In this document: in pieces, positions 45,940-64,000 of the stretch
How positions within the stretch are numbered: position 1 is the stretch's first letter
Layout: each line of letters opens with the position of its first letter
Assembly (NCBI GenBank): GCA_028284325.1
Contig: JANQRX010000010.1
Span: 372,001 to 436,000, forward strand
DNA length: 64,000 nt
Direction: 5' to 3'
From: Bauldia sp.
GTDB taxonomy: Bacteria > Pseudomonadota > Alphaproteobacteria > Rhizobiales > Kaistiaceae
Made by a program: the position numbers and the translations under genes
The notes under the pieces: generated by a model
The model's input: only the letters and a program-made list of their open reading frames with translations
Database searches by the model: none
Told to the model about the DNA's origin: nothing

Positions 45940-47109
45940 ATGGTCGAAGGAAGAAGCGATGCCGCCGGCGGCGGCCGGATCCGCCTCGGTATGGTGGGCG
46001 GCGGGCAGGGGGCGTTCATCGGTGCGGTGCACCGGATCGCCTCCCGGATCGACGATCAGTACGAGTTCGTCGCCGGCGCGCTGTCGTCGCAGAAGAAGCG
46101 CGCGATCGCGTCCGGGCTCGAATTGGGGCTCGCGAAGGATCGCGCCTATGGCAGCTACGAGGAGATGGCCAGGGCCGAGGCCGCCCGCGAGGACGGGATC
46201 GAGGCCGTGGCGATCGTCACCCCCAACCACATGCACGCCGGCCCGGCCACGACCTTTCTGAAGGCGGGCATCCACGTCATCTGCGACAAGCCGATGACCA
46301 CCACGGTGGCCGAGGCGCAGGCGCTGGTGAAGCTCGCCAAGAAGTCGGGTCGGGTCTTTGCGCTCACCCACAACTACACCGGCTATCCGATGGTGCGGCA
46401 GGCGCGCGCCATGGTCGCCGACGGCACCATCGGCAAGGTGCGGGTGGTCCAGGCCGAGTACGCCCAGGATTGGCTCACCGAGCGCGTCGAGACCACCGGC
46501 CAGAAGCAGGCCGCCTGGCGCACCGATCCCAAGAAGTCCGGCGCCGGCGGGGCGATCGGCGACATCGGCACCCATGCCTACAACCTCGCCTGCTTCGTCA
46601 CCGGGCTGGAGCTGGAATCCTTGTGCGCGGACATGTCGATTTCGGCCAGGGGCCGCAAGCTCGACGACAACGATAACATCCTGCTCCGCTTCAAGGGCGG
46701 CGCGCGCGGCATGTTGTGGGCGAGCCAGGTCGCGGTCGGCAATGAGAACGCGCTGCGGCTCCGCGTCTACGGCACCAAGGGCGGTCTGGAATGGGCGCAG
46801 GAGGAACCGAACAAGCTCTGGTACACGCCGTTCGGTCAGCCGAAGCAGTTGCTGACCCGGGCCGGGGCCGGCGCGGGCGAGGCGGCCGCGCGTGTATCGC
46901 GCGTACCCTCGGGGCATCCGGAGGGCTATCTTGAGGGCTTCGCGAACATCTACACCGAGGTCGCGCAGGCGATCCGCTCGGCCCGGTCGGGGCGCAAACC
47001 GCCGAAGGATGTGGTCTTCCCCACCGTCGAGGATGGGCTTGTGGGCATGAAGTTCATCGAGGCGGCCGTGAAGTCGAGCGGAAAGGGGGCGGTGTGGGTC
47101 AAGCCGTGA
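45940..47109 (+). CDS. Gfo/Idh/MocA family oxidoreductase
   Basis: This 389-residue NAD(P)-dependent dehydrogenase has the nucleotide-binding motif RLGMVGGGQGAFIG near the N-terminus, the ICDKPMTTT motif with conserved Lys (about residues 110-119) and a GGAIGDIGTHAYNLA His-containing stretch. It follows the TIM-barrel protein by 12 bases and ends the operon. A sugar or sugar derivative is the likely substrate. Such proteins oxidise or reduce C3 of glycosides in some pathways, but this cannot be told here. Confidence 0.88.
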   Translation: MVEGRSDAAGGGRIRLGMVGGGQGAFIGAVHRIASRIDDQYEFVAGALSSQKKRAIASGLELGLAKDRAYGSYEEMARAEAAREDGIEAVAIVTPNHMHAGPATTFLKAGIHVICDKPMTTTVAEAQALVKLAKKSGRVFALTHNYTGYPMVRQARAMVADGTIGKVRVVQAEYAQDWLTERVETTGQKQAAWRTDPKKSGAGGAIGDIGTHAYNLACFVTGLELESLCADMSISARGRKLDDNDNILLRFKGGARGMLWASQVAVGNENALRLRVYGTKGGLEWAQEEPNKLWYTPFGQPKQLLTRAGAGAGEAAARVSRVPSGHPEGYLEGFANIYTEVAQAIRSARSGRKPPKDVVFPTVEDGLVGMKFIEAAVKSSGKGAVWVKP

Positions 47110-47126
47110 GCGCGCTATAGTGCCTC

Positions 47127-48839
47127 ATGGCTGACCAGGCCTTCCTCGCGCGCGCCATCGCCCAGGCCCGCGGTCTCGAACCCGCGGACCTCGTGATCCG
47201 CAATGTCGGTCTGCTTGACGTCATCACCGGCGACGTCACGACGACCGACATCGCCGTCTGCGGCGACCGGATCGTCGGCACGCACGCGGCCTATGAAGGG
47301 CGCGCGACCATCGACGGCACCGGCCGCTTCGCGGTACCGGGCTTCATCGACACCCACCTGCACATCGAATCCTCGCTGGTCACGCCGGCCGAGTTCGATC
47401 GCTGCGTCCTGCCTCATGGCGTGACGACCGCGATCTGCGACCCGCACGAGATCGCCAACGTCCTCGGCGTCGACGGCATTCGCTATTTCCTCGACGCCGC
47501 CGGGACGACGATCATGGACGTGCGCGTTCAGTTGTCGTCGTGTGTGCCGTCGGCGGCGGCGGAAACCTCGGGCGCGCGGCTGCTCGCCGAAGACCTCCTG
47601 CCGTTTCGTGACCACCCGAGAGTGATCGGGCTCGCCGAGTTCATGAACTTCCCCGGCGTGCTTCATGCCGAGCCCGAGGTGCTCGACAAGCTGGCACCAT
47701 TCCAGGACGGCCACATCGACGGCCATGCCCCGCTGCTTTCCGGCCAGGATCTCAACGCCTACGTTGCGGCGCGGATCGTCACCGAGCACGAGGCGACATC
47801 GGCGGCGGAGGCGCGCGAAAAACTCGCCAAGGGCATGGCGGTCCTGATCCGTGAAGGATCGGTGTCGAAGGACCTGCACGCGCTCGCCGAGGTGCTGGAC
47901 GAGAACACCTCCAGCTTCATGTGCCTGTGCACCGACGACCGCAACCCGCTCGACATCGCCGACGAGGGCCATCTCGATCACATGATCCGGACGCTGATCG
48001 CCATGGGCCGGCCGCTCCACCACGTCTATCGTGCGGCGAGCTGGTCGGCGGCGCGAACCTTCGGGTTGTTCGACCGCGGTCTCATCGCCCCTGGCCAGCG
48101 CGCCGATATCGTGCTCGTCGACGATCTCGCCGCCTGCCGTGTTGCGCAGGTGATCTCCGCCGGCCGGCCGGTCGACGACGACCTGTTCGCGACACGTCCG
48201 ACCGTCGACCCGATCGGGCTCGACAGCGTGAAACGCGCGCCCGTGTCCGCCGCCGATTTCGTCATTGCCGGCGAGGCGGCCGATCTGCCGGTGATCGGCG
48301 TCACCGCCGGCCGCATCATCACCGACCACCTGACCGTCCGCGTCGAGGCCAACGGTAACGCGCGGCTCGCCGATCCGTCGCGCGACATCGCCAAGGTCGT
48401 CGTCCTCGAGCGCCATGGCGTCAACGGCAACATCGGCCGCGGCTTCGTGCGCGGCTTTGGCCTCCGGCGCGGCGCCATCGCCTCGTCGGTGGGGCACGAC
48501 GCCCACAATCTCTGCGTGGTCGGGGTCGACGACGCGGATATGGCCGCGGCCGTCAACCGCTTGCGGGAGATCGGGGGCGGCTTCGCGGTCGCCTCGGGGG
48601 GTGAGGTGCGCGCCGAGCTGGCGTTGCCGCTCGCCGGGTTGATGAGCCTTGAACCGTTCGAGTCGGTACATGACTCGCTGCAGGCGTTGCGCCAGGCGGC
48701 GCGCGATATCGGCTCGACGTTGCCGGAGCCGTTCCTCCAGGTCGCGTTCCTGCCCTTGCCCGTGATCCCGCATCTGAAGATCACCGACCGCGGCCTGTTC
48801 GACGTCGATCGCTTTGAACTGATCGACGAGGCTGGTTAG
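47127..48839 (+). CDS. ade: Adenine deaminase
   Basis: This 570-residue amidohydrolase converts adenine to hypoxanthine. Metal-binding motifs are visible: [11 protein letters not shown] near residue 75, the DPHEIANV stretch, GLAEFMN and DGHAP, and TDDRNPLDI further on. Length and the C-terminal domain (MSLEPFESV…[17 protein letters not shown]) match bacterial Ade. It begins 17 bases after the oxidoreductase gene and may be read through from that operon, but its function is in purine salvage. Its stop overlaps the convergent amidase gene by four bases. Confidence 0.94.
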
Positions 48840-50138: not shown

Positions 50139-50903
50139 CTAGTTGATTGCGGCGATTTCTACTCCTTCGCCGCCGAGAGACCGCCGCACGGATTCGGTGA
50201 TGTCGATTCCATTAGGACCGTCTCCGTGGACGCAGAGGCTCTCGGCGTCGAATCGCAACTGCTTGCCGTTCACGGATGGCATCCAGCCCTGCTGGACAAA
50301 TGTGCGGGCCCGCTCGGTTGCAGCGTCGATGTCAAGCTCACCCTTCTTGCGCTCGAGGATTAGCTTGCCCTCGTCGTCGTACATGAGGTCGACATAGAAC
50401 TCGCCGATCGTCCGAAGGCCAGCTTCGGCGGCGAATTCCCTCACGTGGTCACGAATTGGCGCTGGCCAATAAAACATGCGCGCGGGACAGCAATCAGCTA
50501 TCGCGCGTAGCACTGCGCGCGCGATCTCTTCGCGTTCGTTGATCAGCCAATACATGGCGCCATGGGGCTTGACGTGGTGCAGCGTCTCACCTTCCACCTC
50601 GACGAACTTCTGCAGGGCGCCCACCTGGTAGACCACGTAGTTGTAGGCTTCCGAAGGATCGAGGTCCATTCGGCGGCGCCCGAAGCCCATCAAGTCCGGC
50701 AGTCCCGGATGGGCGCCGATCGCGACGCTATGGCGTTGTGCGAGCTTGACGGTCTGTGCCATTGTGCAGGGGTCGGAGGCATGGAAGCCGCAGGCCACGT
50801 TCGCCGTCGTGACCAAGGGGAGCAGCTCTTCATCTTGGCCCATGGTCCAGTTTCCGAAGGACTCGCCACAGTCCACGTTTATGTCCAAAGATCGCAGATA
50901 CAC
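50139..50903 (-). CDS. pxpA: LamB/YcsF family protein (5-oxoprolinase subunit A-like, PxpA)
   Basis: This 254-residue protein has the family motifs INVDCGESFG, TTANVACGFHASDP, IGAHPGLPDLMGFGRR and HHVKPHGAMY. The start is GTG at 50903 after GGGAGG. In E. coli and Bacillus, PxpA works with PxpB and PxpC in ATP-dependent opening of 5-oxoproline. Here the B- and C-like genes are in a separate operon 5 kb away, inside an ABC transporter operon. The actual lactam may differ. It is probably co-transcribed with the racemase and GntR genes upstream. Confidence 0.88.
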   Translation of the reverse strand: MYLRSLDINVDCGESFGNWTMGQDEELLPLVTTANVACGFHASDPCTMAQTVKLAQRHSVAIGAHPGLPDLMGFGRRRMDLDPSEAYNYVVYQVGALQKFVEVEGETLHHVKPHGAMYWLINEREEIARAVLRAIADCCPARMFYWPAPIRDHVREFAAEAGLRTIGEFYVDLMYDDEGKLILERKKGELDIDAATERARTFVQQGWMPSVNGKQLRFDAESLCVHGDGPNGIDITESVRRSLGGEGVEIAAIN

Positions 50904-50980: not shown

Positions 50981-51640
50981 TCAAAGCAGTTGCGTCCGCA
51001 TGTGTTCGATCGCCAACTCCGGGCTGGCCAAGGCCGGGACGGTCAGTGCCTGCGGCGAGAGCTCGGACAGGACGCGGGCCATCGAGGCCTGGGCCAGAAC
51101 GACGACATCGACTCGCGCGGCTATATCGACGAAGGCTTCCCTGACCTCGGCATCGTGTTGATCCCGGTTACCCTGTTGCAGAGCCTGGAATGCGCCATCG
51201 CGAAGGGAAGCGACCAACTCGACCGTCTTGCCCTTGGCCTTGGCGCGGCTCTCAATCAGCGCGCGCGTCGGGGCGAGTGTCGTGCTCAAGGTCGCCAAGA
51301 CACCGATCCGCCTGCCCAGATCGATCGCGCGGTCCGCCATCGCCTCGTCAACCCGGAACAGCCTGACGGGACAGGTCGGCACGACGGCATCCACGGCCGG
51401 TCCCAGCGAAGAGCAGGTCACCATGATGGCGTCGGCGCCGGCCTCGACGGCTGACGAGACGTATCCAGCCAAACGGCGTCGAGTGACGGCCGACAGCTCG
51501 CCAGTCCTGATGGTGTCCCTCAGCAGGCTTTCGTCGACGATGTTGAAGACCTCCCATTCGGGCAGATGGCGGCCGGCGAGGTCTTCGAACGTTGGGATAA
51601 GGTTGGTTACGGTGTGAATGAACGCGAGTTGTCGCCCCAC
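50981..51640 (-). CDS. Asp/Glu/hydantoin racemase family protein
   Basis: This 219-residue protein of the Asp/Glu racemase superfamily has one catalytic-type Cys in VTCSSLGPAVDA (about residues 73-84); a second catalytic-site thiol is not obvious, the later corresponding region reading VVLAQASMARVL with no Cys. Related proteins with that second site altered are known in this superfamily. The start is GTG at 51640 after AAGGAGC. It lies between gntR and pxpA on the same strand. The likely role is racemising or isomerising the island's substrate; the precise reaction is open. Confidence 0.82.
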   Translation of the reverse strand: MGRQLAFIHTVTNLIPTFEDLAGRHLPEWEVFNIVDESLLRDTIRTGELSAVTRRRLAGYVSSAVEAGADAIMVTCSSLGPAVDAVVPTCPVRLFRVDEAMADRAIDLGRRIGVLATLSTTLAPTRALIESRAKAKGKTVELVASLRDGAFQALQQGNRDQHDAEVREAFVDIAARVDVVVLAQASMARVLSELSPQALTVPALASPELAIEHMRTQLL

Positions 51641-51720: not shown

Positions 51721-52455
51721 TCATGGAGCGGCCTTGCGGTTGGAAAGCTTCGATGTTGACGCTTTGCTTCGGATGGCCTCCAGACCGCTTTCCGAAATCT
51801 TGATCAGAAGACGCTCCCCGGCACTCGTTATGTGATTTCGCACGGCGGTCTTTGCCCGGTCGGCCTCGCCGGACAAGACGGCCCGGAGGAGTGACGTGTG
51901 AGCTTCAACCTCACTCTCGACGTCGGATTCGAAGAGCTTCGTATAGAAGATGAACTGTCGCGTGCAGACCTGAAGGCCGCGCAGTTGCTCAAGAAGGATC
52001 TCGTGGCCGCAGGGTGTGCAGATCGTCCAATGGAGCTGCATGTCGGCTTCGATCAGGGCGAAGGGGTCGTCGAGCTTCGCGCAGTCCTTCATGTGGTCGA
52101 AAGCAGCCTCGATCCGTGCCGCCTCAGGCTTGCGCAGGCGCCCTTCCGTCAGGGCCAGATTCACGGCGAAACCCTCGAGGACGGCACGGAGGCTGAAGAT
52201 CTCACGAGCGCGTTGCGGCGAGAGTTGTGCGACTTCGCCGCCGCGACGGGCATGCAGCACGACAAGGCCCGAATCGGCGAGCGCTCGCAATGCCTCGCGA
52301 ATCGTCCCGCGCGAAGTTTCGAAGCGCCGTGAAAGGGGAATCTCCGGGAGCGTGCTGCCGGGCGGAAACTCTCCGCGTAGGATGGCATCTTGGATGCGTC
52401 GACGCACGACGGCTGACGTCGGCGCTTGCGACACTGTCAGGTCGGCGCCTTTCAA
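51721..52455 (-). CDS. GntR-family (FadR/FCD type) transcriptional regulator
   Basis: This 244-residue regulator has an N-terminal winged helix (VVRRRIQDAILRGEFPPGSTLPEIPLSRRF, FETSRGTIREALRALADSG, residues about 15-65) and a C-terminal all-helical FCD effector domain (about 90-225) with a probable metal/ligand site (His in MQLHWTIC and in NHITSAG). An ATTGTCGGACAAT palindrome lies 66-78 bases upstream. Identical-pattern sites precede the other two transcription units of the island, so this protein is the probable shared regulator. Confidence 0.88.
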   Translation of the reverse strand: MKGADLTVSQAPTSAVVRRRIQDAILRGEFPPGSTLPEIPLSRRFETSRGTIREALRALADSGLVVLHARRGGEVAQLSPQRAREIFSLRAVLEGFAVNLALTEGRLRKPEAARIEAAFDHMKDCAKLDDPFALIEADMQLHWTICTPCGHEILLEQLRGLQVCTRQFIFYTKLFESDVESEVEAHTSLLRAVLSGEADRAKTAVRNHITSAGERLLIKISESGLEAIRSKASTSKLSNRKAAP

Positions 52456-52520: not shown

Positions 52521-52533
52521 ATTGTCGGACAAT
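52521..52533. promoter_or_regulatory. Probable GntR operator 1 (ATTGTCGGACAAT)
   Basis: A perfect 6-base inverted repeat with one central base lies upstream of gntR on the minus strand. It shares the ATTGTnnGACAAT pattern with two other sites. GntR proteins of the FadR/FCD group typically bind TTGTnnnACAA-like palindromes. This site is placed for autoregulation of the gntR-racemase-pxpA unit. Confidence 0.65.
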
Positions 52534-52822
52534 TGACGGGGCGATGCCGGAGGACAATTGCCCCCTTCAAAGCGCAGGAATCCCAAGGTGTCGAAGACGC
52601 GATCAAGTGAATTGGAGATTCTTATAGTAGGCATGGCGAGCCTGAACCTCTCCCAACCATTGCCTATACACCTTAGCCGGAAGGTAATTTGTTGACAAGG
52701 GCGAATCCTGAACACCGACAGGGCGCCGTGTCTCGAAGATAGCTAGATCCATGTATTGCGGGGACTGGGTTGCGAAGCCTCTTGACCGAGTGAAGCTCGA
52801 TAGCTAGCATGCCGGAAAATAA

Positions 52823-52835
52823 ATTGTTGGACAAT
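52823..52835. promoter_or_regulatory. Probable GntR operator 2 (ATTGTTGGACAAT)
   Basis: The palindrome has 12 of 13 positions of the shared pattern (arms ATTGT and ACAAT are exact). It ends four bases before the ATG at 52840, leaving no room for a normal ribosome-binding site there. Binding could block transcription, or translation may begin further downstream. Confidence 0.6.
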
Positions 52836-52839
52836 TTTA

Positions 52840-53511
52840 ATGACTGCAAAGTCGACAACAATCTATCGCGGTCGCTATGGGCCGACGCCCGATCGGGTCA
52901 TCCCGTGGGCGACGCTCTGGCGTGAGCGGACTGCTGCAATCACAGCCCTGCTGCGGGCTCGTCTTAGCGCTTTGGCCGCTGCCCCTGATCGACGGGCATG
53001 GAGTCGAGAAAACTTGTGTGCCCTCGAAGAGGCGCACCGCGCCGTGCAATTTCCGATCGCTGTGCCCCGTTGGATGCCGGCAGGCTACGGCCTGAGCGCG
53101 CTGTCCTGCGTCTCGGGTGGCGGCGGTTTGCTCACGCTCGTGTTTGCTGCGAACGGGGGCCGCGAATTCCAGATTTCCCAGCGGCAAAGATGGTTGCCGC
53201 TCGAGGAGGAGATGAAAGCGGCGCGCGTGCCGGTGACCCGGCTGCGTCTCTTGGGCCGGCGTCTCTATGTGGTCCATGGCACCTACGGTGGAGAGCCGAT
53301 CGACCATAGCTTTTGGCCCACGACACGACGCTCGGTTGCCTGCGAAGTCGGTGACGTTCTTGTCGAGCTTCGAGAGATAGCCGGTGGCGGGCCAGGCCTC
53401 CGAGATCTGCTGAGTGTCGCCGCCAGTATCTTGCCGGAGCGCAATGTTTCCGATGCGAGGGATTCTGAAGGCTCGGCGGCTGGTGAGATGCCAGGCGCAA
53501 GGAAGCAATGA
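52840..53511 (+). CDS. Hypothetical protein, possible DUF4367-like domain, first gene of the transport operon
   Basis: This 223-residue protein has no signal peptide or membrane helix. Its middle (FPIAVPRWMPAGYGLSALSCVSGGGGLLTLVFAANG…, about residues 73-190) resembles in pattern the DUF4367-type domain seen in some exported and regulatory proteins, but the match is weak. I recognise no function. The ATG directly follows operator 2 with no Shine-Dalgarno; an in-frame TTG at 53016 with GGAG upstream is an alternative start, giving 164 residues. It lies 47 bases before the ABC binding-protein gene and is probably co-transcribed with it. Confidence 0.6.
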   Translation: MTAKSTTIYRGRYGPTPDRVIPWATLWRERTAAITALLRARLSALAAAPDRRAWSRENLCALEEAHRAVQFPIAVPRWMPAGYGLSALSCVSGGGGLLTLVFAANGGREFQISQRQRWLPLEEEMKAARVPVTRLRLLGRRLYVVHGTYGGEPIDHSFWPTTRRSVACEVGDVLVELREIAGGGPGLRDLLSVAASILPERNVSDARDSEGSAAGEMPGARKQ

Positions 53512-53558
53512 GCCAATGAACCAAGGTCTTGAAGGGACTTAACAGGGAGGATGATCCA

Positions 53559-54743
53559 ATGACAGCCAAAGGAAACGGCGGATTCTCGAAGAGCCGCAAG
53601 AGCAAGACGACTGCGGCCTCTGCCACCGGCAGCACTGGTGCCACAACGAACCCGGGCGCTGGCCCGAGCAGCGAGATAAGCCGACGGCAGTTCTTAAGCC
53701 ATTCCTCCGGAGCGGCGCTGACAGCGGGCGCAGCGGCCTTGGTCGGTTCGCAGCCCGGGTTCGTGCGCGCAGCGGCCGCGGCCAAGCCCTTTCGGGTTGC
53801 GATGTTGCTGCCGAGCTTCGACCAGAGGCGGTGGAAAGCGGCTGATGGCGCCTTCTTCTTGAAGCGTGCAAAGGAGCTGGGCATGGACCCGCTGCCGCTT
53901 CAGTCGTCGAACAACGATCCGATTCTGCAAGCCAGCCAGATTGAAAACCTGCTCAACCAGAACATCGACGGTCTGGTGCTGGTTGCGGTCAACGTCGATG
54001 CTGCCGTTGCGAGCGTCCGGAAGGCGAACGACGCGGGCGTTCCGGTGGTCGCTCATAACTACATCATTCCAAACGTGAAGCTTTGCGGCGTGTCCGCGCG
54101 CGACGGCGTCGAGCTGGGCCGCTACCTCGGCAAGATCCTGCTTGACGCGGCACCCAAGGGGAACTGGGTCGTCAACAAGGGTGACGAGGGCACGGACATT
54201 GCTCGCTTGAAGGCGGAAGGCGGTCTTGAGATGATTCAGGCGCAGATCGACAATGGCGACATCAAGATCGTGTCCGATCAGTGGATGCGCGCGTGGTCCG
54301 GCGATCTATCGAGAAAGCAGATGGAGCAGGCTTTGATTGCGACCAACAACGAGGTCGCCGCCGTCTTGTCCTACTGCGATTGCCAAGCCTACGGCATCAT
54401 CGAGGCGCTGCGCGCCCAGGGCCTCAATGGCAAGGTGCCGGTGACCGGCGAGGACGGCGAGCCGGAGATGCTGAAGTTGGTCCTTCAAGGGGATGCAATG
54501 GTCACGGCATGGACCAAGTTCGATGAAATGGGAACGCGGTCTGCCGAGCTGATCTACGAATGCCTGGCGAAGGAACCCTCGAAAGCGCCCGACAGAGTCG
54601 ACAACGGCGCCGGGGAAGTGCCCTGGTACAAGGCAGCGATCGAGAATATCACCAAGGACGGCCAAGGGTACAAGGCGAAGTCCGTAGCCCAATTCGCTGA
54701 GGAAAACCCCTGGTGGGTGACCAAGGACGAATTGGGTCTCTAG
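53559..54743 (+). CDS. Sugar-type ABC transporter substrate-binding protein with Tat signal
   Basis: This 394-residue periplasmic protein belongs to the Peripla_BP_4 (ribose/xylose-binding) family. An SRRQFLSHSSGAALTAGAAALVG twin-arginine signal sits near residue 41, after an unusually long polar leader rich in Lys, Ser and Thr. The fold is read from FRVAMLLPSF, NNDPILQASQIENLLNQNIDGLVLVAVN, GVPVVAHNY and a C-terminal VTGEDGEPEML. The ATG at 53559 follows AGGGAGGATG. It captures the island's substrate; the binding-site residues do not identify the ligand. Confidence 0.9.
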   Translation: MTAKGNGGFSKSRKSKTTAASATGSTGATTNPGAGPSSEISRRQFLSHSSGAALTAGAAALVGSQPGFVRAAAAAKPFRVAMLLPSFDQRRWKAADGAFFLKRAKELGMDPLPLQSSNNDPILQASQIENLLNQNIDGLVLVAVNVDAAVASVRKANDAGVPVVAHNYIIPNVKLCGVSARDGVELGRYLGKILLDAAPKGNWVVNKGDEGTDIARLKAEGGLEMIQAQIDNGDIKIVSDQWMRAWSGDLSRKQMEQALIATNNEVAAVLSYCDCQAYGIIEALRAQGLNGKVPVTGEDGEPEMLKLVLQGDAMVTAWTKFDEMGTRSAELIYECLAKEPSKAPDRVDNGAGEVPWYKAAIENITKDGQGYKAKSVAQFAEENPWWVTKDELGL

Positions 54744-54832
54744 CGCCATAGGGTGGTGCTGGCCCTTAGCTGGCTCTCTCCGCCTCCTATGAAGTTCAGC
54801 CTAGGCCACTTGATCTTGTGAGTTGAGCGCCT

Positions 54833-56062
54833 ATGACCATTGAATCGCAAGGGCGGGTAGCGGCGCCTGTGGAGAGTGCTGCGGACACCGTCGGCGAGCA
54901 GCGATCCCGCTTTCGCGATCGCCTCGCCACGGTGCCCGTGGAGCAGCTTCGTGCCCTCAGTCTCGTCGGTGTTCTGCTCGTCATCTGGATCATCTTTCAG
55001 ATCCTCACGGATGGGCTGTTTCTCTCGCCACGCAACCTGACCACGCTGAGCGTGCAGGTCGCCATGACAGCGATCCTGGCGGCTGGGATCGTCATGATCA
55101 TGGCCCAAGGCTACATCGACCTGTCGATCGGCTCCGCCGTCGCGTTCACCGGCATGGTGGCCACGCTCGTCATTGACCCGACTCGCGGGCTCGGCTGGAC
55201 GACAGACCCAGTGGCGATCATCGCAATCACATTGCTCTCCGGCTTGGCGATCGGGGCCTGGCAGGGATTTTGGGTCGCTTGGATGCGCGTCCCCGCATTC
55301 ATCGCGACCCTGGCCAGCCTTCTCGCCCTGCGCGGAGCGGCCTTGACCGTCACCGGAGGCTCGACGACCTCGCATCATGGCACGCTGTCGTTTCTCGCGG
55401 CCGATTTCGTTCCCGCGCATTGGACCGCCTTGGCAATCCTGGCTCTCGTGCTGCTCTTCGCCCTGGTCAAGCATCGCGACTGGCGGGCCCGCGTCGCCGT
55501 CTCGAAGGGGGTTTCGTTCCTCGCTCACGTCGGGCTCCCGGTGGCCGTTCTGGCCATATTCGGAATCGGCGCTTCGCTCGTCGCCTTCTCCTATCGCGGA
55601 GCGCCTTTGCCGGTCGTGATCCTCGGCATCGTCGTCGCCGTTGTGACCTTCGTTATGTCACGGATGTCTTTCGGTCGGCGGCTCTACGCGATCGGAGGAA
55701 ATCCCGCGGCCGCCCGCTATGCCGGCGTCAACATCGAGTGGCACTGCTTCCTCGTGTTCGCCTTCATGGGGGTGCTCTACGGGGTCGCGGGGCTCATTCT
55801 CGTGTCCCGCATCGGTGTTGCCGTGCCGACCGCGGGCACGGGACTGGAGCTCACGGTCATCGCCGCCGCGGTTATCGGCGGCACCAGCCTGTTCGGCGGC
55901 ATGGGCACGGCGGTTGGTGCGGTCATCGGCGCTCTACTCCTCGAGAGCCTCAACAACGGCATGGGCCTGATGAATGTCGAATCGTCCTTCCAATTGATCG
56001 TCAACGGAATGGTCCTGTTGGTTGCCGTCTACTTCGACATTCGCGGTCGAAAACGGACCTAG
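54833..56062 (+). CDS. Sugar-type ABC transporter permease (XylH/RbsC-like)
   Basis: This 409-residue membrane protein of the BPD_transp_2 family has about ten helices. The [21 protein letters not shown] motif is present as [22 protein letters not shown] (about residues 82-103), with [21 protein letters not shown] (about 281-301) as the coupling region and a [10 protein letters not shown] motif near 348. It follows the binding protein and precedes the pxpB-like gene. It forms the membrane channel with the ATPase encoded at 58038. Confidence 0.92.
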
Positions 56063-56071
56063 GGACGCGGC

Positions 56072-57022
56072 ATGGTGTCGGACGCAGTGGCAATGGAATC
56101 GCCTGAGCCCGGTTTTGACGGTGCGTCGCCCGGCTTGATCGAGGGCTTGCGATTCCTTCCCGCCGGAGACCGCTTCGTGCTCCTCGAGCTCGGTCAACAT
56201 ATGGAGCTGCCGCTGAACCTCCGTGCGATCCAACTGGCCGACCGGCTGCTCGAAGAGAAGGTGCCCGGCCTGATCGAGACCCTGCCGATGTTCATCTCGG
56301 TGCTCGTGCACTACGACTCCCTCGTTTTGACGCCGGAGCGTCTGAGGGACCTGGTCCGCAGGGCCTGGCGCGACCTGCTGGACGAGAGCGACATTGTCGT
56401 GCCCTCCCGGCTGATCGAGATCCCGGTCCACTACCTGGATCCTTGGACCAAGGATTGCGTGGAGGACTATGCCCGGAACATCCAGCCTATCGAGTACAAC
56501 CCGTCCTATGTTGCCAAGATCAACGGCCTGAGCGGCCCGGAGGAGCTCGCGAAGCTCCATTCCAGCACGCAGCACTGGGTTGGCGGTGTCGGTTTCTGGG
56601 CCGGCGTTCCCGACATGCTGCCGCTTGACCCGCGCTGCCGCCTGTCGATCCCGAAGTACAATCCTCCGCGGCTGTGGACCGTGCAGGGGGCCATCGGAGT
56701 CGGCGGTGGGTTCACCTCGATCTATCCCATCGAGTCGCCGGGCGGCTACTACCTGATCGGCCGCACGCCGGTGCCGATCTACAGCGTGGACACGCGATTG
56801 CCAGCCTTTCGCGAGCGCGCGACCCTGTTCCAGCCGGGCGACCGCATCAAGTTCCGGCGGATCTCATTTGAGGAATACGAAGCCATTGCGGCGGAAGCTG
56901 CGGCAGGCGCCTACCGCTATCTGATCTGGGACTACGACCTGTTCTCCTTGTCGCGTTACCAGGCGTGGACCAAAGGGCTCCAGGTGAATGGCGACGCTGC
57001 TCCAGAAGGCGATGAAGCATGA
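56072..57022 (+). CDS. pxpB: KipI/PxpB-type 5-oxoprolinase subunit B-like protein, long variant
   Basis: This 316-residue protein has the carboxyltransferase-type KipI domain (GDRFVLLELG near residue 32; GVGGGFTSIYPIESPGGYYLIGRTPVPIY near 210-240). It is longer than usual for this family (about 220-240 residues), with extra sequence around residues 115-165. The ATG at 56072 begins nine bases after the permease. Its stop overlaps the pxpC-like start. With PxpC and PxpA it could open a lactam or related ring using ATP. Its true substrate is uncertain and the name is by homology. Confidence 0.75.
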   Translation: MVSDAVAMESPEPGFDGASPGLIEGLRFLPAGDRFVLLELGQHMELPLNLRAIQLADRLLEEKVPGLIETLPMFISVLVHYDSLVLTPERLRDLVRRAWRDLLDESDIVVPSRLIEIPVHYLDPWTKDCVEDYARNIQPIEYNPSYVAKINGLSGPEELAKLHSSTQHWVGGVGFWAGVPDMLPLDPRCRLSIPKYNPPRLWTVQGAIGVGGGFTSIYPIESPGGYYLIGRTPVPIYSVDTRLPAFRERATLFQPGDRIKFRRISFEEYEAIAAEAAAGAYRYLIWDYDLFSLSRYQAWTKGLQVNGDAAPEGDEA

Positions 57023-58041
57023 GCGGCAGCTTGGAGATCGTCAAACCAGGGCTGCAGACGACGGTTCAGGACTTTCCGGGACGCGTCGGCTTCTGGCGCT
57101 TCGGTATCCCTCCGTCCGGCCCGATGGACGCTCTAGCCTTTCGGCTCGCCAACCTGCTCGTCGGCAACGAAGACGGCGCGGCAGCCATCGAGATGCAGTT
57201 CGTCGGCCCGAGCATCCGCTTCCGGGCCGGGGCCCATATCGCGATCACGGGTGGGGATTGCGCACCGACCCTGGACGAGCAGCCTGTTGCGCAGTGGCAG
57301 ACGATCGAGGTGCGTGCGGGGCAGATCCTCTCATGTTCCGTCATGGGCACTGGCGCACGTGCCTACCTGGCGGTCTCGGGTGGCCTTGAGAAGCCGCTTC
57401 TCATGGGAAGCCGCGCGACCTTTCCGCGTGGTGAAATGGGCGGTGGGGCGCTGAAGGCCGGAGATTCCTTCGAGTTTCCGGACAGCTCGGGAGATCTGCG
57501 GCTGGTCCGTGTTTCGCAGGCGTGCATTCCGGACTATCCGAGCGAGATCCCCGTCGCCGTGACCAGGGGGCCCCATTTCGATTGGCTCGACGATGCCGGT
57601 CGAGAGACCTTTCTCGCTGTTCCTTGGAAGGTTTCCGGCCAGAGCGATCGGACGGGAATCCGACTCGTCGGCCCGAAACTCAGCTTCTCCCGCCGCGCCG
57701 TGGAGAAGGCGCCGGAGAATGGCCCGGATCCGACCAACGTCATCAACACCGGCTATCCGATCGGCGGGGTGAATTTCTGCGGCGAGACGTTGATCGTCCT
57801 GCCGGTTGATGGCCCAAGCCAGGGCGGCTTCATCACGCCTTTCGTCGTGCCGTCCGGGGCGCTCTGGAAAATCGGCCAAGCCAGACCAGGCCAGACCATC
57901 TCGTTCCAGCTCATTCCGGTGAATGAGGCGATCAACCTGCGGCGTGGCCTCGAGGCGCTTGTCTCTACCGCCAGTCTGGAGCCGGCCAAGGAAGAGAGCC
58001 CCGAGAGCTCGAGGTCGCTGAACGGAGCATTCGGCAAGTGA
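57019..58041 (+). CDS. pxpC: KipA/PxpC-type 5-oxoprolinase subunit C-like protein
   Basis: This 340-residue biotin-dependent-carboxylase-like protein of the urea amidolyase-related (KipA) family has LEIVKPGLQTTVQDFPGRVGFWRFGIPPSGPMD near the N-terminus, and TGYPIGGVNFCGETLIVLPVDGPSQGGFITP near residue 240. It is coupled to the B-like gene upstream (ATGA overlap) and to the ABC ATPase gene downstream (GTGA overlap). The pair is inserted within an ABC transporter operon, which implies that the imported compound is the ring to be opened. Confidence 0.85.
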   Translation: MSGSLEIVKPGLQTTVQDFPGRVGFWRFGIPPSGPMDALAFRLANLLVGNEDGAAAIEMQFVGPSIRFRAGAHIAITGGDCAPTLDEQPVAQWQTIEVRAGQILSCSVMGTGARAYLAVSGGLEKPLLMGSRATFPRGEMGGGALKAGDSFEFPDSSGDLRLVRVSQACIPDYPSEIPVAVTRGPHFDWLDDAGRETFLAVPWKVSGQSDRTGIRLVGPKLSFSRRAVEKAPENGPDPTNVINTGYPIGGVNFCGETLIVLPVDGPSQGGFITPFVVPSGALWKIGQARPGQTISFQLIPVNEAINLRRGLEALVSTASLEPAKEESPESSRSLNGAFGK

Positions 58042-59606
58042 CCGGTTCTATGCAGATGGACCGGAGCGTTGCTGACAGTCCTCGTCGTCCGGATGTGGCC
58101 CTTGAGGTCAGGAACGTCGAGAAATGGTTCGGTGGCACGCAGGCTCTGCGCGGGGTCTCGGTTGCCTTTCGCTCGGGAGATGTGCACGCGATCGTTGGCG
58201 AAAACGGAGCCGGCAAATCCACGCTGGTGAAAGTCCTGTCAGGCTTCTATCCCTCCGGCACATTCAGTGGCGAGGTCTTTCTGGAGGGTGAGAAGCTCTC
58301 GACCCAGAGCCTTTTCGAGGCAGAGGGGCGCGGGATCCATCTCGTGCCGCAGGACCTCCAGGTCGTTCCGGGCCTGAACGTTGCGGAGAACCTTTTCCTG
58401 AACCGAGAGCCGGCGCGCTTCGGCGTGGTGAGGCGGCGCGACATGCTCGAGCAGGCAGCCGGACTGCTGAAGGAGCATCGCATAGTCTGTGACCCATCCG
58501 AGCTGATGGCGAGTCTGACGACTGCGCAACAGCAACTCGTCGTCATCGCCCGTGCCATGATGCGTGGTGTCCGGGTGCTCGCGCTCGACGAGCCGACCGC
58601 GGCCCTGACGGAGACCGAGGCCCATGTCCTGTTCGATCATGTGTTCGAGCTGCGGCGGCGAGGGATCTCGATAATCTATATTTCGCACCGGCTCGACGAG
58701 ATCACGCGCGTGGCGGATCGAATCACGGTCTTGCGCGATGGCTCCGTTGTCGATCACGTGGAAAGGGGTGACCCGAAACAGGTCTCGCGCCGCGTGGTGC
58801 AGGCGATGATCGGTCGCGATGTCCAGCTTAGCCGGCGGAGCAGGACGGCAATTGGCCCCGTCAAGATGGAGCTGAGGAGCATCACGCTGCGGCCCAGCGA
58901 AGGCGTGCGGGCGCCATGGCTCGAGGGGGTCGATCTCAAGCTGCACACCGGTGAGGTTGTGGCTCTGTTCGGTTCGGTCGGCTGCGGCTCCGACCAATTG
59001 GTTCGTGTCATGTTCGGAATGAGCGAAGGCCGGCTGGAGGGTGAGATCCGCATCGACGACGCGAAGGCCCGAATCGACAGTCCAGCCGCTGCAATCCGAC
59101 AAGGGATTGGCTACTTACCCGGCGACCGTCAGCGCGATGCGGCTTTCCCCATGCTCTCGATCGCCGAGAACATCGGCATCCTGGTGCTTCACCGGCTGAC
59201 GCGGCTTGGCGTCGTTCAAGTCGGGAGAGAGTTCGAGCTCGTCAGGGAGTTCTACAGTCGATTCCGGATCAAGGCGCGTTCACTTGACCAGCCCTTGAGG
59301 ACCTTGAGCGGAGGAAACCAGCAAAAGGTCATCCTGTCGCGAATGCTGTCGACGGAGCCGAGCATCCTGATCTTTCACGAGCCGACCCAGGGTGTCGACA
59401 TCGCGACGAAGGAAGACGTCTACGAGGTCATTCACGCCTTGGCGCGTGAGGGCTACGTCATGCTGGTCGTGACCTCCGACCTCGAGGAAGCGATGGTGAT
59501 CGCGGATCGGATCGTGGTCATGCGCTCTGGCCGGGTCGTCGGCGAGTGGAAGGCGGAAGACACGACACAAGAACAGGTTCTCGCCGCGGCAACGGGGGGT
59601 GCCTGA
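58038..59606 (+). CDS. Sugar-type ABC transporter ATP-binding protein (two ABC domains, XylG/RbsA-like)
   Basis: This 522-residue protein has two ABC domains. The first has a complete Walker A (GENGAGKST near residue 55) and Walker B (VLALDEPTAALT). The second has a degenerate Walker A (FGSVGCGSDQLV) and an LSGGNQQKV signature, as is normal for RbsA/XylG-type proteins. The start is the GTG at 58038, overlapping the pxpC stop; an in-frame ATG at 58050 is an alternative. It energises the permease encoded at 54833. Confidence 0.92.
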   Translation: MTGSMQMDRSVADSPRRPDVALEVRNVEKWFGGTQALRGVSVAFRSGDVHAIVGENGAGKSTLVKVLSGFYPSGTFSGEVFLEGEKLSTQSLFEAEGRGIHLVPQDLQVVPGLNVAENLFLNREPARFGVVRRRDMLEQAAGLLKEHRIVCDPSELMASLTTAQQQLVVIARAMMRGVRVLALDEPTAALTETEAHVLFDHVFELRRRGISIIYISHRLDEITRVADRITVLRDGSVVDHVERGDPKQVSRRVVQAMIGRDVQLSRRSRTAIGPVKMELRSITLRPSEGVRAPWLEGVDLKLHTGEVVALFGSVGCGSDQLVRVMFGMSEGRLEGEIRIDDAKARIDSPAAAIRQGIGYLPGDRQRDAAFPMLSIAENIGILVLHRLTRLGVVQVGREFELVREFYSRFRIKARSLDQPLRTLSGGNQQKVILSRMLSTEPSILIFHEPTQGVDIATKEDVYEVIHALAREGYVMLVVTSDLEEAMVIADRIVVMRSGRVVGEWKAEDTTQEQVLAAATGGA

Positions 59607-59608
59607 TT

Positions 59609-59647
59609 GCATGGTGCGCCGAGGCGCGAGACGCCACCATGCCTTTT
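59609..59647 (+). terminator. Hairpin with T-rich tail before the aminotransferase gene
   Basis: The arms GCATGGTG (59609-59616) and CACCATGC (59635-59642) are exact inverted repeats; the 18 bases between them can form a smaller inner hairpin (CGCC/GGCG), and CTTTTA follows. It lies in the 56-base gap between the ATPase and aminotransferase genes. It could attenuate transcription of the last gene or separate it. The T run is short, so termination would be partial. Confidence 0.45.
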
Positions 59648-59662
59648 AGGAAGGAAAGTAAC

Positions 59663-61045
59663 ATGAGCTTGCCGATCAAGAACGTATCCCTGGAAGAGCT
59701 GGACAAGCGAGCTTTCTTCCATCCCTACACCGCGCTGGCGGAGCACGCCGAGGGCGGGCCGCGCGTGATCGCCAAGGCTGAAGGCATCCGGGTCACCGAT
59801 ACGAACGGCGAGGAGTTGATTGACGGATTTGCCGGCCTCTGGTGCTCGAACATCGGGTACAGCAGAGAAGAGATGGCTGAGGCCATATACGAGCAGGCCA
59901 GGACGCTATCGTACTTCCATTGTTTTGGCTCGATGGGCACCGAGCCGTCGATCCGTCTTGCGGACCTGCTTATTGACCTGATGCCCGACAACATGAGCAA
60001 GGTTCAGTTCGGGAACTCCGGATCGGACGCCAACGATACGAGTATCAAGGTCGTATGGCTCTATAACAACATCCTCGGACGCCACCACAAGAAGAAGATC
60101 ATCGCCCGACACCGCGGATACCACGGAATCACGACCCAGGTGGCCGCTGTCTCCAGCTTGCCGACGGTCCACAGCGCCTTTGATTTGCCGATAGAGCGGG
60201 TCCGGAGGGTGAGCCCGGCGTGCTACTACTGGCGCCCCGACAAGGCCATGACGGAAGCCGACTATACCGCTTACCTTGTCAATGAGCTCGAACAGGTCAT
60301 TCTCAACGAGGGGCCGGACACGGTTGCGGCCTTCATCGCCGAGCCGATCGCCGGTGCGGGCGGGCTCTTCACACCCCCGGATGGTTACTGGGAAGGCGTT
60401 CAGAGAGTCTTGGCCAAGTACGACGTGCTGCTGATACTCGACGAGGTGGTGACCGGCTTCGGCCGCGTAGGGCATATGTTCGCGGCGGAAGCCTACGCCA
60501 TTGTGCCGGACATCATGACGATGGCCAAGGGTCTCACCAGCGGCTACGTCCCCATGTCTGCATCCGTCTTTTCGGAGGATATCTGGCAGGTCCTGCTGGA
60601 AGGCCACAAGACGCTCGGCGTCTTCGGGCACGGTTACACCTATTCCGCACATCCTCTTGCGGCTGCGGCGGGGCTGGCCAACATCGAAATCATGCTCCGC
60701 GAAAAGCTCGTGGACAACGCCGCGGTGGTCGGGCGCTATCTCCAGAAGCGGCTACGGGACGAGCTCAATGATCATCCTTTAGTCGGCGACATAAGGGGCA
60801 TAGGCCTGCTTGCAGGCATCGAGTTGGCTGACAAGAGCGGTGGCGAGCCGAAGCCGTTTGAGCCTCGCGGCGTGGAGGGCCAAAAGCTTGCGGTCGCCTG
60901 TCGCAACAACGGCCTGATCGGCCGCCTCCTGATGGACAGCGACGTCTTCGCTCTCTCGCCGCCGCTGATCATCTCAAACGACGAGGTCGACCTCATCATC
61001 TCCATTCTCAAGAAGTCGCTCGACGAGGTCTTGCACGACCGATAG
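59663..61045 (+). CDS. Class III (omega) aminotransferase
   Basis: This 460-residue PLP enzyme has the expected pyridoxal-phosphate features: NSGSDANDTSIK, RHRGYHGITT, LILDEVVTGFGRVG and the Schiff-base Lys in TMAKGLTSGY (about residue 289). The ATG at 59663 follows GGAAGGAAAG. It is of the beta-alanine/taurine/4-aminobutyrate:pyruvate type, acting on terminal amines rather than alpha-amino acids. It is the last gene of the seven-gene operon. The donor is likely the ring-opened product, but this is inference. Confidence 0.92.
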   Translation: MSLPIKNVSLEELDKRAFFHPYTALAEHAEGGPRVIAKAEGIRVTDTNGEELIDGFAGLWCSNIGYSREEMAEAIYEQARTLSYFHCFGSMGTEPSIRLADLLIDLMPDNMSKVQFGNSGSDANDTSIKVVWLYNNILGRHHKKKIIARHRGYHGITTQVAAVSSLPTVHSAFDLPIERVRRVSPACYYWRPDKAMTEADYTAYLVNELEQVILNEGPDTVAAFIAEPIAGAGGLFTPPDGYWEGVQRVLAKYDVLLILDEVVTGFGRVGHMFAAEAYAIVPDIMTMAKGLTSGYVPMSASVFSEDIWQVLLEGHKTLGVFGHGYTYSAHPLAAAAGLANIEIMLREKLVDNAAVVGRYLQKRLRDELNDHPLVGDIRGIGLLAGIELADKSGGEPKPFEPRGVEGQKLAVACRNNGLIGRLLMDSDVFALSPPLIISNDEVDLIISILKKSLDEVLHDR

Positions 61046-61121
61046 AGCATCTTCCGCTCGCCCAGGTTCGTCAGAGAGTCGTCAGAGCGGGGAATGCTGC
61101 AGATCGCGGACTGCGGAGTCC

Positions 61122-62456
61122 TCAGGCGGTCCCATCGAGTACTTGTCGGAAGTAGCCGGTGCCACCGACCTGACCGCCTTTGAGGGCGATCTCCAGACCG
61201 TCGACGTCTCGATCGACCGCGTGGCCGAGGCACAGCGGAGCGCCGGGCGAGATCGGCATGCGGAGGGTAAAGGCGAAGAGGCCAAGCTGCCGGGCCGCGT
61301 GTCCCGATGTATCGCCGCCGGCGACCACGACCCTGGAGAGCTTCTCCCTAGCGACGAGCTCGCGCAGGATCATGCCGAGCTGTGAGCCCAAGCGATGATT
61401 GAAGGCGATGGAGTCCAGGTCCCGGGTTTCCACAAAGCCGCTGCGCCGGCCCAGCGCGCTATAGACAATGACGCTTCGGCCTCGCTTCAAGGCCTCCAGC
61501 GCCCTTTCGATCGCGTCCTTGCTGGACTCAAGGGCGGTTTCAGGCGCTGTGAGCGCCGCCGCATCTACGGCAATGCCGACAAAGCCGTCGTCGCAGGCGG
61601 CAAGGATCTGCTCCTCGGTGACAGGCGAGCAGCTTCCCGACACGGCAGCCAAGCGCTCGACCGGGCCCGCAGGCGGCAGCGTGCTCTTCCCCGAGGCGTC
61701 GCCCGTCATCAGCCAGTGCTTGACGAGTGCATACTCGAGACCCGACGAGCCGGCGGCAAAGATCGGCCCCTGGCCAAGCCGCTGGCCGAGTAGCCGGCCG
61801 ATCCGCGCCAGATCGCCTTCCTCCAGAACATCGAACAACACGATCTCGGCGCCATCGCGCAGGCACGCGTCCAAGGCCGCCTCAGACGCCGGGCCGCGCA
61901 GGGCAAGGATGTCGACCAAGCCGAACCGGGCATCGGACTGCGCTGCGAGATGCTTGCCGATCTCGCTCTCGGACATGGGAGTGACCGGATGACGGGACAT
62001 GACCGGGTGCCGATCGATGCGGTATGTGGTGCCGTCGAGAGTTGCAAAAAGATGGCCGAACAGGGTGTAGCGCGCCAATGTCGGCACACCGATCACCAGA
62101 GGCACGTAGGGTCCGCGGAAGACCGCTTGGCCGATCTCGATCGCGCGACCGATGTTGCCGACCTCGGGCGCGCTGTCGAAGGTCGAGCAGGTCTTATAGT
62201 GACAGATCGGCGCGCCCAGCTCGCGGAGCGCCGCGAAGACGGGCGGCAGCTCCCTTGCCATCCAATCCGGGCTTTGTGCTCGGCTGGTTCCCGCAACGCC
62301 GATGGCCCGGCAGTGAGGGAAATTGGCTAGCTGCTCAGGTGTAGGGGCTTCAAGGAACAAGACCGTCGGAACGCCGGCGAGAGCCAGTACTTCCATGGCA
62401 TCGGTGGAGCCGGTGAGGTCGTCGCCATAAAATGACAGAAGCGGTGACTTGCTCAT
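61122..62456 (-). CDS. Four-carbon acid sugar kinase family protein (OiaK-like)
   Basis: This 444-residue protein has the DUF1537/NBD-Sugar kinase fold: YGDDLTGSTDAMEVL near the N-terminus, and VVAGGDTSGHAARQLG at about residue 388 as the nucleotide-binding motif. The family phosphorylates oxidised acid sugars (3-oxo-tetronate, threonate and 3-oxoisoapionate kinases). It is coupled to the RuBisCO-like gene (TGATG overlap). Pairing with such a protein is the known arrangement of the D-apiose pathway kinase OiaK. No kinase substrate is proven here. Confidence 0.85.
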   Translation of the reverse strand: MSKSPLLSFYGDDLTGSTDAMEVLALAGVPTVLFLEAPTPEQLANFPHCRAIGVAGTSRAQSPDWMARELPPVFAALRELGAPICHYKTCSTFDSAPEVGNIGRAIEIGQAVFRGPYVPLVIGVPTLARYTLFGHLFATLDGTTYRIDRHPVMSRHPVTPMSESEIGKHLAAQSDARFGLVDILALRGPASEAALDACLRDGAEIVLFDVLEEGDLARIGRLLGQRLGQGPIFAAGSSGLEYALVKHWLMTGDASGKSTLPPAGPVERLAAVSGSCSPVTEEQILAACDDGFVGIAVDAAALTAPETALESSKDAIERALEALKRGRSVIVYSALGRRSGFVETRDLDSIAFNHRLGSQLGMILRELVAREKLSRVVVAGGDTSGHAARQLGLFAFTLRMPISPGAPLCLGHAVDRDVDGLEIALKGGQVGGTGYFRQVLDGTA

Positions 62457-63724
62457 CAGCGGAAGGCGTCAAGGGCCTGAGCCAGCTCGGCGTTATCACG
62501 CGCCGCTTCGTCCAGAGCGCGCCCCTCCAGCGCGGCCTCCCAGGCTTGCCGTAGGCTCGCCACGCCGGCGGCGACGCCGCCAGGGTGAGCGACCACGCCG
62601 CCACCGCAGCAGTAGATCAGATCGGTCGAGCCCAAGGCCTTGTAAGTGTCTGGGACCTGCCGCGCGGTCTGCCCGGAGGAGAACACGGGCATCACGATGC
62701 AGTCTTTGTCCGGAGGCGTGAACATCGGCGTCAGACAGGTCCGCGCCGACTCCACCACGCTGTCATCGTCCTCGCAGAACTTGTTCCGCAGTCCGTTCAC
62801 GTGCATGTGGTCGGCACCGGCCAAGCGCCAGAGCTTCTGGTAGGCCCGATAGCTCATGCCGATGTCAGGAGATCGACTGAAGAGGCCCCAGCCGTTCCGG
62901 TGCCCGTGGATCGGCAACTGGCTGTATCGGCGCAGATGATCCAGCCCGGCCAGACCAATGCCGTTGAGGCTGACCATGATGCAGGTGCCGCCGGCACGCC
63001 GCACCTGATCGTGCCGTTGCAGCATCTGGTCGATGCCTCCGGTGATATTGAAGGCGTACATGATCTTCTTGCCGGTCCGCTCGGCATGGTCGTTGAGGAC
63101 ACGCATCACCTTCTCGACGCGCAGCTCCAGCGGGTTGTGCGGTCCGTCGGCTTGCAGCTCGTCGTCCTTGATGAAATCGATGCCGCCTTCGGCGAGACGG
63201 CTGACGGCCTCGGCGGTGGCCTCCGGCGAAAGGCCCACGCTGGGCTTGATGATCGTTCCGATCAAGGGCCCGAAGGCGACGCCGGCGAGCCGCCGTGTTC
63301 CGTCGACGCCGAATTGCGGCCCGGCGTAGGCGGATGCGAAGGCGGGCGGAAGCTGAATATCGAGCAGTCTGAGCGCCGAGAACTGCGCCAGTTCAAAGAG
63401 GTTGCCTGCGACCGTGGCCAGCAGGTTCGGGAGCGAGGGCCCCATGTTGGCCAGAGGCCAGGACAACTCGACCTCGGCTCTTCGATAGACCGGTCTTGTC
63501 GCCGCGGCCGGGGGCACTTTCGCTCCGGGGAGCGCAGGGCGCCGTCCTTCGCCGGTCTGCGTGATTCGCTCTACGCGTGCAGCGTGCGCCTCTCGCAGCT
63601 CGTCCGTCTCGCCGGGCACGCGTGCGAAGGTCCCGGTTGACTGCTCTCCCGCCATCGCTTCGACGGCTTCGGACAACTTGAAAGCGGTCTCGATTTCATA
63701 ACGTGCCGATACGCGGTCGCCCAA
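62456..63724 (-). CDS. RuBisCO-like protein (form IV; oxoisoapionate-4-phosphate decarboxylase OiaX-like)
   Basis: This 422-residue protein is a ribulose-bisphosphate carboxylase large-chain homolog. Equivalents of spinach residues: Lys160 (K175), Lys186-Asp-Asp-Glu189 (K201-D-D-E204), His275 (H294), His308 (H327), Lys315 (K334), Ser350 (S379) are visible. The K177 equivalent, a catalytic Lys, is Ser162. The active-site N-terminal QSTGTF and VAGN stretches are also kept. It is thus a RuBisCO-like protein, not a CO2-fixing enzyme. Start is TTG at 63724 after GGGAG. With the kinase it probably performs a decarboxylation or transcarboxylation of a phosphorylated oxo acid sugar. Confidence 0.85.
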   Translation of the reverse strand: MGDRVSARYEIETAFKLSEAVEAMAGEQSTGTFARVPGETDELREAHAARVERITQTGEGRRPALPGAKVPPAAATRPVYRRAEVELSWPLANMGPSLPNLLATVAGNLFELAQFSALRLLDIQLPPAFASAYAGPQFGVDGTRRLAGVAFGPLIGTIIKPSVGLSPEATAEAVSRLAEGGIDFIKDDELQADGPHNPLELRVEKVMRVLNDHAERTGKKIMYAFNITGGIDQMLQRHDQVRRAGGTCIMVSLNGIGLAGLDHLRRYSQLPIHGHRNGWGLFSRSPDIGMSYRAYQKLWRLAGADHMHVNGLRNKFCEDDDSVVESARTCLTPMFTPPDKDCIVMPVFSSGQTARQVPDTYKALGSTDLIYCCGGGVVAHPGGVAAGVASLRQAWEAALEGRALDEAARDNAELAQALDAFR

Positions 63725-64000
63725 GGCCCAGCTCTCCCGTCCAACTCCTTGTCATCGATCGTTGAAGATTGTCTGACAATATGTCATGGAGTCGTATGCT
63801 AGCCTTCGGGATTTGCCAGGTCAAGTTCGCGGATAAATATATAAAATACCTCAATAAAATTTGAATGTAGAATGGTGATGGAAGCTATTGCCGCGCCTCG
63901 CTTGTCAACAGCCTTGCGGCCGTCTAGAGTGCCCATCCGGCATCAGGAGTTGAGTGGAATCAGTGACTGGAGCTTTGGATTTAACAAGCTGATATTAATA
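63725..64000. promoter_or_regulatory. Control region upstream of the RuBisCO-like gene, to window end
   Basis: This 276-base region to the window edge has no complete gene. It contains GntR operator 3 and a distinctly AT-rich tract (63830-63870). CTTGTCAACA at 63901-63910 is the inverse of a stretch at 52690-52699. On the plus strand a TTG at 63952, just after AGGAG, opens a frame running off the window (SGISDWSFGF…); this may be the start of a further gene, but too little is seen. Confidence 0.45.
63768..63780. promoter_or_regulatory. Probable GntR operator 3 (ATTGTCTGACAAT)
   Basis: A perfect 6-base inverted repeat with one central base lies 44 bases upstream of the RuBisCO-like gene's TTG. 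It differs from operator 1 only at the central base. Its position suits repression of the RuBisCO-like/kinase unit by the same GntR protein. Confidence 0.65.

Follow-up and report, generated by a model that had tools for sequence, protein, structure and literature searches.

Four operator-like palindromes around a gntR gene of Bauldia sp. point to a GntR/FCD regulon that joins PxpABC-type enzymes and a RuBisCO-like protein

Introduction

Palindromes of the same sequence that precede several neighbouring transcription units raise the questions of whether these units answer to a single regulator and what pathway they may encode. In a stretch of 64,000 nucleotides from Bauldia sp. (contig JANQRX010000010.1, positions 372,001 to 436,000; hereafter the window), a preliminary description had noted three such palindromes, located upstream of a gntR gene, a seven-gene operon and a gene for a RuBisCO-like protein, and had proposed that one GntR regulator ties these three units to a single function. 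Our analyses have identified a fourth site and a fourth unit, and we consider it highly likely that the sites are operators of the local GntR protein, a regulator with an FCD ligand domain that would act as an autoregulated repressor of all four units. One regulator would thereby probably switch a whole pathway, comprising uptake, ring-amide opening, a transaminase, a sugar-acid kinase and a RuBisCO-like enzyme.

Predicted Operators Shared by Four Transcription Units

The three palindromes first noted (operators 1–3; Table 1) are the sole exact matches to ATTGTNNGACAAT in the window, where 0.003 are expected from composition (0.16 in the genome). Operators 1 and 3 are perfect palindromes (ATTGTC-n-GACAAT), and in operator 2 (ATTGTT-G-GACAAT) the symmetry is broken at one position. 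The looser core TTGTNNNACAA is also found three times, the mean in shuffled sequences being 0.19, with three or more reached in none of 100 shuffles. With two mismatches allowed, ATTGTNNGACAAT is not enriched in the window (6 matches versus 4.2 expected), and the signal therefore lies only in the exact or core form. The check proposed in the preliminary description, a scan of the whole genome (3.58 Mb in 12 contigs; all genome scans were pattern searches), located exact ATTGTNNGACAAT at four places, all within 11.6 kb, and gave no scattered random matches. The fourth site, ATTGTTGGACAAT (operator 4; C2:436064-436076), had been missed because it lies outside the window, 64 bp past its end. Matches with one mismatch elsewhere in the genome are few and not commoner than those of a reversed control pattern, and with regard to further regulon members, the core matches inspected elsewhere fall mostly inside likely genes.

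The sequence ATTGT-N3-ACAAT is present at all four sites and has the layout of GT and AC boxes, 2–3 nt apart, of the FCD (FadR) subfamily. Operators of this subfamily consist of TKGT/ACMA boxes usually separated by 3 nt and, in some orthologous groups, by 2 nt (PMC4494728), so that the site class had been correctly assigned to FadR/FCD regulators. A further half-site, GGACAATTG (52552-52560), was recognized by reading beside operator 1.

The four sites precede four units, viz. gntR, a racemase-family gene and pxpA on the minus strand (unit 1); seven open reading frames (ORFs) on the plus strand, for an orphan product, an ATP-binding cassette (ABC) binding protein, a permease, PxpB, PxpC, an ABC ATPase and a class III aminotransferase (unit 2); the RuBisCO-like gene and an OiaK-like kinase gene on the minus strand (unit 3); and genes for biotin carboxyl carrier protein (BCCP) and biotin carboxylase on the plus strand (unit 4). 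The units of pxpA and pxpBC are each preceded by a ATTGTTnAACAAT-like operator (operators 1 and 2, respectively), and the fourth site stands before the subunits that a biotin-dependent PxpBC enzyme would need, which supports the regulon. The proposal of one GntR regulator is strengthened by the genome scan, by this additional unit and by half-sites at five orthologs (see below), but the number of units is four, not three.

Two copies of the promoter-like sequence TTGACC-N17-TAGCAT are present in the window (0.002 expected), one before unit 2 and the other before unit 3. Operators 2 and 3 lie just downstream of these identical predicted promoters, which fits repression. Without inducer, a GntR dimer would bind ATTGTYnGACAAT at four places, one before each unit, and the repressor on operators 2 and 3 would cover the first transcribed bases and block RNA polymerase at these sigma-70-type promoters. 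A compound of the pathway would bind the FCD domain and release the repressor, the foremost candidates being the lactam or amide that is taken up and the carboxylate formed from it.

The regulator has an N-terminal GntR winged helix-turn-helix domain (PF00392, 51 bits) and a C-terminal FCD domain (PF07729, 71 bits), each of which exceeds the gathering score, and this architecture places it in the FCD (FadR) subfamily. Four DNA-reading residues (E38, R49, R53, and G72) and four residues of the FCD metal site (D138, H142, H186, and H208) are invariant in the ortholog alignment. In our reading of the alignment, the first four would match the DNA-reading positions of FadR and of Atu1419 of Agrobacterium fabrum (PMC4494728; PMC7797058), and the other four would match the FCD metal site. 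A single-sequence structure prediction of the GntR protein had a mean pLDDT of 43 and was not used. The PDB entry 6z74, which we take to be Atu1419, matches the protein weakly by sequence (E 7.7e-9).

Regulator Orthologs and a Probable Change in Operator Spacing

Clear orthologs of the regulator are rare among the 84,980 species genomes and 297 genomes of the order that were searched. They comprise two from Bauldia (58–60% identity), one from Pseudohalocynthiibacter (47%), two at 48%, and further proteins from G415 (53%), from G643 (47%) and from a bin assigned to Chloroflexi (37%). A steep fall in profile score separates all of these from the next proteins (≥181 versus ≤126 bits). Upstream of gntR in five orthologs we have identified 10 TTGTYGACAR-like palindromes (three in Bauldia litoralis, L173; two each in a Bauldia metagenome-assembled genome, L172, and in L174 and G415; one in G643) that agree with the window in their half-sites but lack the additional base in the centre, about 0.005 per region being found in shuffled upstream regions. 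The independent loci are few, and the five include two that are closely related. The longer spacing of the window was not found upstream of these gntR genes. The TTGTnnnACAA spacing of the preliminary description thus holds for the locus itself, but the orthologs have the 2-nt form and the 3-nt form is peculiar to this lineage.

At the locus studied here the longer form is present four times and the shorter form once, as TTGTTGACAA at 52689, the only occurrence of TTGTNNACAA in the window. The two operator-like sites that precede the gntR ortholog of L174 have this very sequence, and the 52689 site is possibly a relic or an extra operator. In the phylogenetic tree, the window protein is sister to the Bauldia proteins (92/87) and nested within the clade with shorter spacers (97/96); the longer spacer would therefore most simply be derived in the window lineage.

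In both Bauldia loci (L173 and L172), genes for an ABC importer of sugar type, an aminotransferase, PxpC, PxpB (59–68% identical) and PxpA are opposite gntR and the adjoining racemase gene (60–61% identical). These loci differ from the window in their 2-nt operator spacer and in that the RuBisCO-like, kinase, BCCP and biotin carboxylase genes are not located there. The loci L116/L117 and L118 (G415 and G643) have gntR orthologs in operons that, in place of Pxp genes, encode an M20 peptidase, a glutamine-hydrolase-like protein of family C26 and an ABC importer of a different type, and this context hints at an amide- or amino-acid-like ligand.

The operator-like pairs of the orthologs are 104, 101, 105 and 105 bp apart, with the third L173 site 204 bp further. 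The 101–105 bp spacing is constant in L172, L173, L174 and L116 and near ten helical turns, which suggests cooperative binding or looping in the orthologs.

Two other loci of the same genome have related features. At C8 ~78046-80498 (L271:547-2999), an FCD-type GntR gene (L171) and a hydantoinase A gene face each other across AATTGTCGACAATT, a 2-nt-spacer palindrome beside a second regulator of a ring-amide enzyme. At C12:285691 (L265:2690-2704), TTTTGTCTGACAAAT is located ~70 bp upstream of a gene that by eye resembles one for an aldo/keto reductase, near its own FadR-type GntR and an amidohydrolase (L160).

Alternative Explanations

Several observations weigh against repression of all four units by the local GntR. 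No good promoter was found beside operator 1 or operator 4 (units 1 and 4), and a distance of 205 bp separates operator 4 from the start of the BCCP gene (by reading, a GTG at L009:2282 with the ribosome site GGAGGAGG), a leader in which a search for a riboswitch gave no Rfam match. No site was found at three other orthologs (L175, L176, and L177). The ortholog spacer is one base pair shorter, so that the regulator of the window would have to tolerate another geometry. In Bauldia the RuBisCO-like/kinase pair is outside the regulon, as far as the exact motif shows. Lastly, 24 FCD regulators are encoded in the genome, any of which could in principle read the sites.

The GntR protein could also be an activator, or a dual regulator that loops the DNA between paired operators, instead of a simple roadblock repressor. 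Two operators are located about 300 bp apart in both divergent regions, the ortholog pairs are separated by nearly ten helical turns, and the Atu1419 tetramer loops two sites 190 bp apart (PMC7797058); however, the exact distances at this locus (302 and 296 bp) do not correspond to an integral number of turns, and the position of operators 2 and 3 downstream of predicted promoters suits repression. On this evidence we regard activation or looping as unlikely, yet deserving of attention.

It is distinctly improbable that a different FCD regulator, encoded at another place in the genome, binds the four sites and that binding by the local GntR is confined to TTGTTGACAA, with its 2-nt spacer, because the four 3-nt sites cluster around the local gntR and are found nowhere else, a regulator encoded far away ought to have a site near its own gene, and the half-site sequence is the same as in the operators of the orthologs. 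This explanation draws on the many FCD proteins of the genome and on the 2-nt spacer of all ortholog sites, a site of this kind being present in the gntR-operon intergenic region.

That the palindromes lack regulatory meaning and merely arose by copying of a single promoter segment, mobile or duplicated, is barely credible given the conservation of the orthologs' sites across genera, although sites 2 and 4 share flanking AAATTGTTGGACAATT...ATGAC and sites 1 and 3 share GAAG. Duplication of the whole promoter region was rejected, as the divergent regions align only at the palindromes and a few flanking bases.

Genes of the Predicted Regulon and Pathway

If the local GntR represses the four units, the pathway that is induced would begin with import of the substrate by the ABC importer. 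PxpABC together with biotin carboxylase and the carrier protein would open a ring amide in an ATP- and biotin-dependent manner, the aminotransferase would remove the nitrogen to yield an oxo acid, and the kinase would phosphorylate the resulting hydroxy-oxo acid, which the RuBisCO-like protein would then decarboxylate. This scheme, in which we infer the order of reactions, would cover nearly every gene, the exceptions being the orphan ORF and the precise part played by the racemase, and the single function proposed in the preliminary description appears likely.

The PxpA protein scores 287 bits against the subfamily model NF003814 (cut-off 226), and no equivalog was passed. PxpB and PxpC (86 and 147 bits) are well below their cut-offs of 146 and 500 bits, respectively, and the substrate therefore need not be 5-oxoproline. 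BCCP and biotin carboxylase score over the PRK07051 and PRK12833 cut-offs. Identification of the RuBisCO-like protein as OiaX and of the kinase as OiaK was rejected (453 and 502 bits versus a curated 700); their plasmid relatives, which are 60–66% identical, are likewise outside the OiaX/OiaK cut-offs, and the plasmid neighbours of the RuBisCO-like relatives belong to other pathways and lack the operator motif. A plasmid of Thermomicrobium roseum (L050) has the combination seen here of a sugar-type ABC importer, BCCP, PxpB, PxpC and PxpA in one cluster with a biotin transporter, near which accC and xanthine dehydrogenase-family genes are found.

Table 1. Sites and genes of the locus (window positions; equivalent positions for features beyond the window).
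Feature	Position	Strand	Location or relation	Basis
PxpA (LamB/YcsF), lactam-hydrolase subunit	50139..50903	-		Pfam PF03746; NCBIfam NF003814
Asp/Glu/hydantoin racemase family protein	50981..51640	-	co-directional with gntR	Pfam PF01177
GntR-family regulator with FCD ligand domain, predicted repressor	51721..52455	-		Pfam
Operator 1, ATTGTCGGACAAT	52521..52533		66 bp upstream of gntR (gntR-racemase-pxpA unit)	exact match
2-nt-spacer palindrome TTGTTGACAA, ortholog type	52689..52698		midway between gntR and main operon	
Predicted promoter of main operon, TTGACC-N17-TAGCAT	52782..52810	+		motif match
Operator 2, ATTGTTGGACAAT	52823..52835		starts 12 nt after -10 hexamer of main operon	
Orphan ORF, 223 codons	52840..53511	+	operon head	coding status uncertain
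ABC substrate-binding protein, XylF-like	53529..54743	+		family searches
ABC permease, sugar (CUT2-like) type	54833..56062	+		family searches
PxpB-like carboxyltransferase subunit	56072..57022	+		PF02682
PxpC-like carboxyltransferase subunit	57019..58041	+		PF02626
ABC ATPase, XylG/GguA-like	58038..59606	+		family searches
Class III aminotransferase	59546..61045	+		PF00202
OiaK-like four-carbon acid sugar kinase (SBD_N/NBD_C)	61122..62456	-		family searches
RuBisCO-like protein, sister to OiaX	62456..63724	-		family searches
Operator 3, ATTGTCTGACAAT	63768..63780		starts 15 nt after -10 hexamer of RuBisCO-like gene	
Predicted promoter of RuBisCO-like gene, TTGACC-N17-TAGCAT	63796..63824	-		motif match
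Operator 4, ATTGTTGGACAAT	equivalent of 64064-64076		beyond window, upstream of BCCP	
BCCP	equivalent of 64281-64526	+	beyond window	
Biotin carboxylase	equivalent of 64534-65889	+	beyond window	

The orphan ORF has no family match and no homolog in 385 genomes of the class or in plasmids. Its codon-position G+C differs from that of its neighbours, its codon-position bias is weak, and only 4 bp separate the end of operator 2 from its start codon, with no clear ribosome site left; the ORF may represent either a gene of poor expression or a leader that is not translated. The true start of the aminotransferase is probably 59663. Just upstream, positions 41001-48839 of the window hold, by eye, genes for a LacI regulator, xylulokinase-like and xylose-isomerase-like proteins, oxidoreductases and adenine deaminase, and the shared palindrome was not found in this part.

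Comparison with Known Systems

In Corynebacterium glutamicum, PxpR represses pxpTABC via the operator agATTGTTCAACAATct, mutation of which raises expression 6.5-fold, and it binds 5-oxoproline with a dissociation constant (KD) of 0.73 uM (PMC13274462). The two systems share a GntR-type regulator beside pxpABC, an operator downstream of the -10 region, ATTGT/ACAAT half-sites and 3-nt spacing. They differ in that for PxpR one operon has been reported, autoregulation was judged unlikely and no RuBisCO-like protein is involved, whereas the locus studied here has four units. Descent of the regulon from PxpR was rejected: actinobacterial PxpR-type proteins (those found through their operator, C. glutamicum PxpR itself not being among them) score 53–71 bits against the ortholog profile, compared with 20–72 for unrelated paralogs and 181–419 for orthologs, and they form a separate 100/100 clade in the tree. 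With at most one mismatch, agATTGTTCAACAATct is present in 10 of 399 genomes of one actinobacterial order, and at five of these loci the operator is upstream of pxp genes, once in the arrangement pxpA-B-C-biotin carboxylase-GntR. The GntR proteins at these pxp loci are not orthologous to that of the window; therefore, either GntR regulators with nearly the same operator would have taken control of pxp genes on two or more occasions, or divergence may have carried the regulators past recognition. The window regulator is best read as a PxpR-like repressor of a biotin-dependent lactam- or amide-opening pathway that would have captured the RuBisCO-like protein and the kinase.

Atu1419 resembles the system predicted for the window in being an autoregulated FCD repressor (VanR group) with a short palindrome and paired operators in a divergent region, and differs in its operator (ATGTATACAT) and its folate-type effector. 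In the OiaX/OiaK pair of isoapionate catabolism, a RuBisCO-like decarboxylase also adjoins a DUF1537-type kinase; unlike it, the pair in the window is joined to an amide-opening and transamination module.

Significance

The operators show which genes belong together beyond what genome context could. They group the RuBisCO-like protein with an importer, a biotin-dependent PxpABC-type enzyme, an aminotransferase and a kinase in what would be a single regulated pathway, and its likely substrate is therefore narrowed to a nitrogen-containing ring or amide, with a phosphorylated oxo acid as product. The RuBisCO-like enzyme thereby gains a testable pathway context. We tentatively propose, as a possibility that falls short of a probability, that the regulator changed its operator geometry by +1 bp, from an ancestral TTGTYGACAA to TTGTY-n-GACAA with the half-sites kept, that this may insulate the regulon from the second FCD regulator, whose likely operator would be AATTGTCGACAATT at the hydantoinase operon, and that a biotin-dependent pathway of amide opening acquired the RuBisCO-like protein and its kinase through the regulon at the same time. 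The respacing of the operator is unusual, and with half-sites and reading residues unchanged it would represent a natural experiment on the half-site spacing of FCD dimers.

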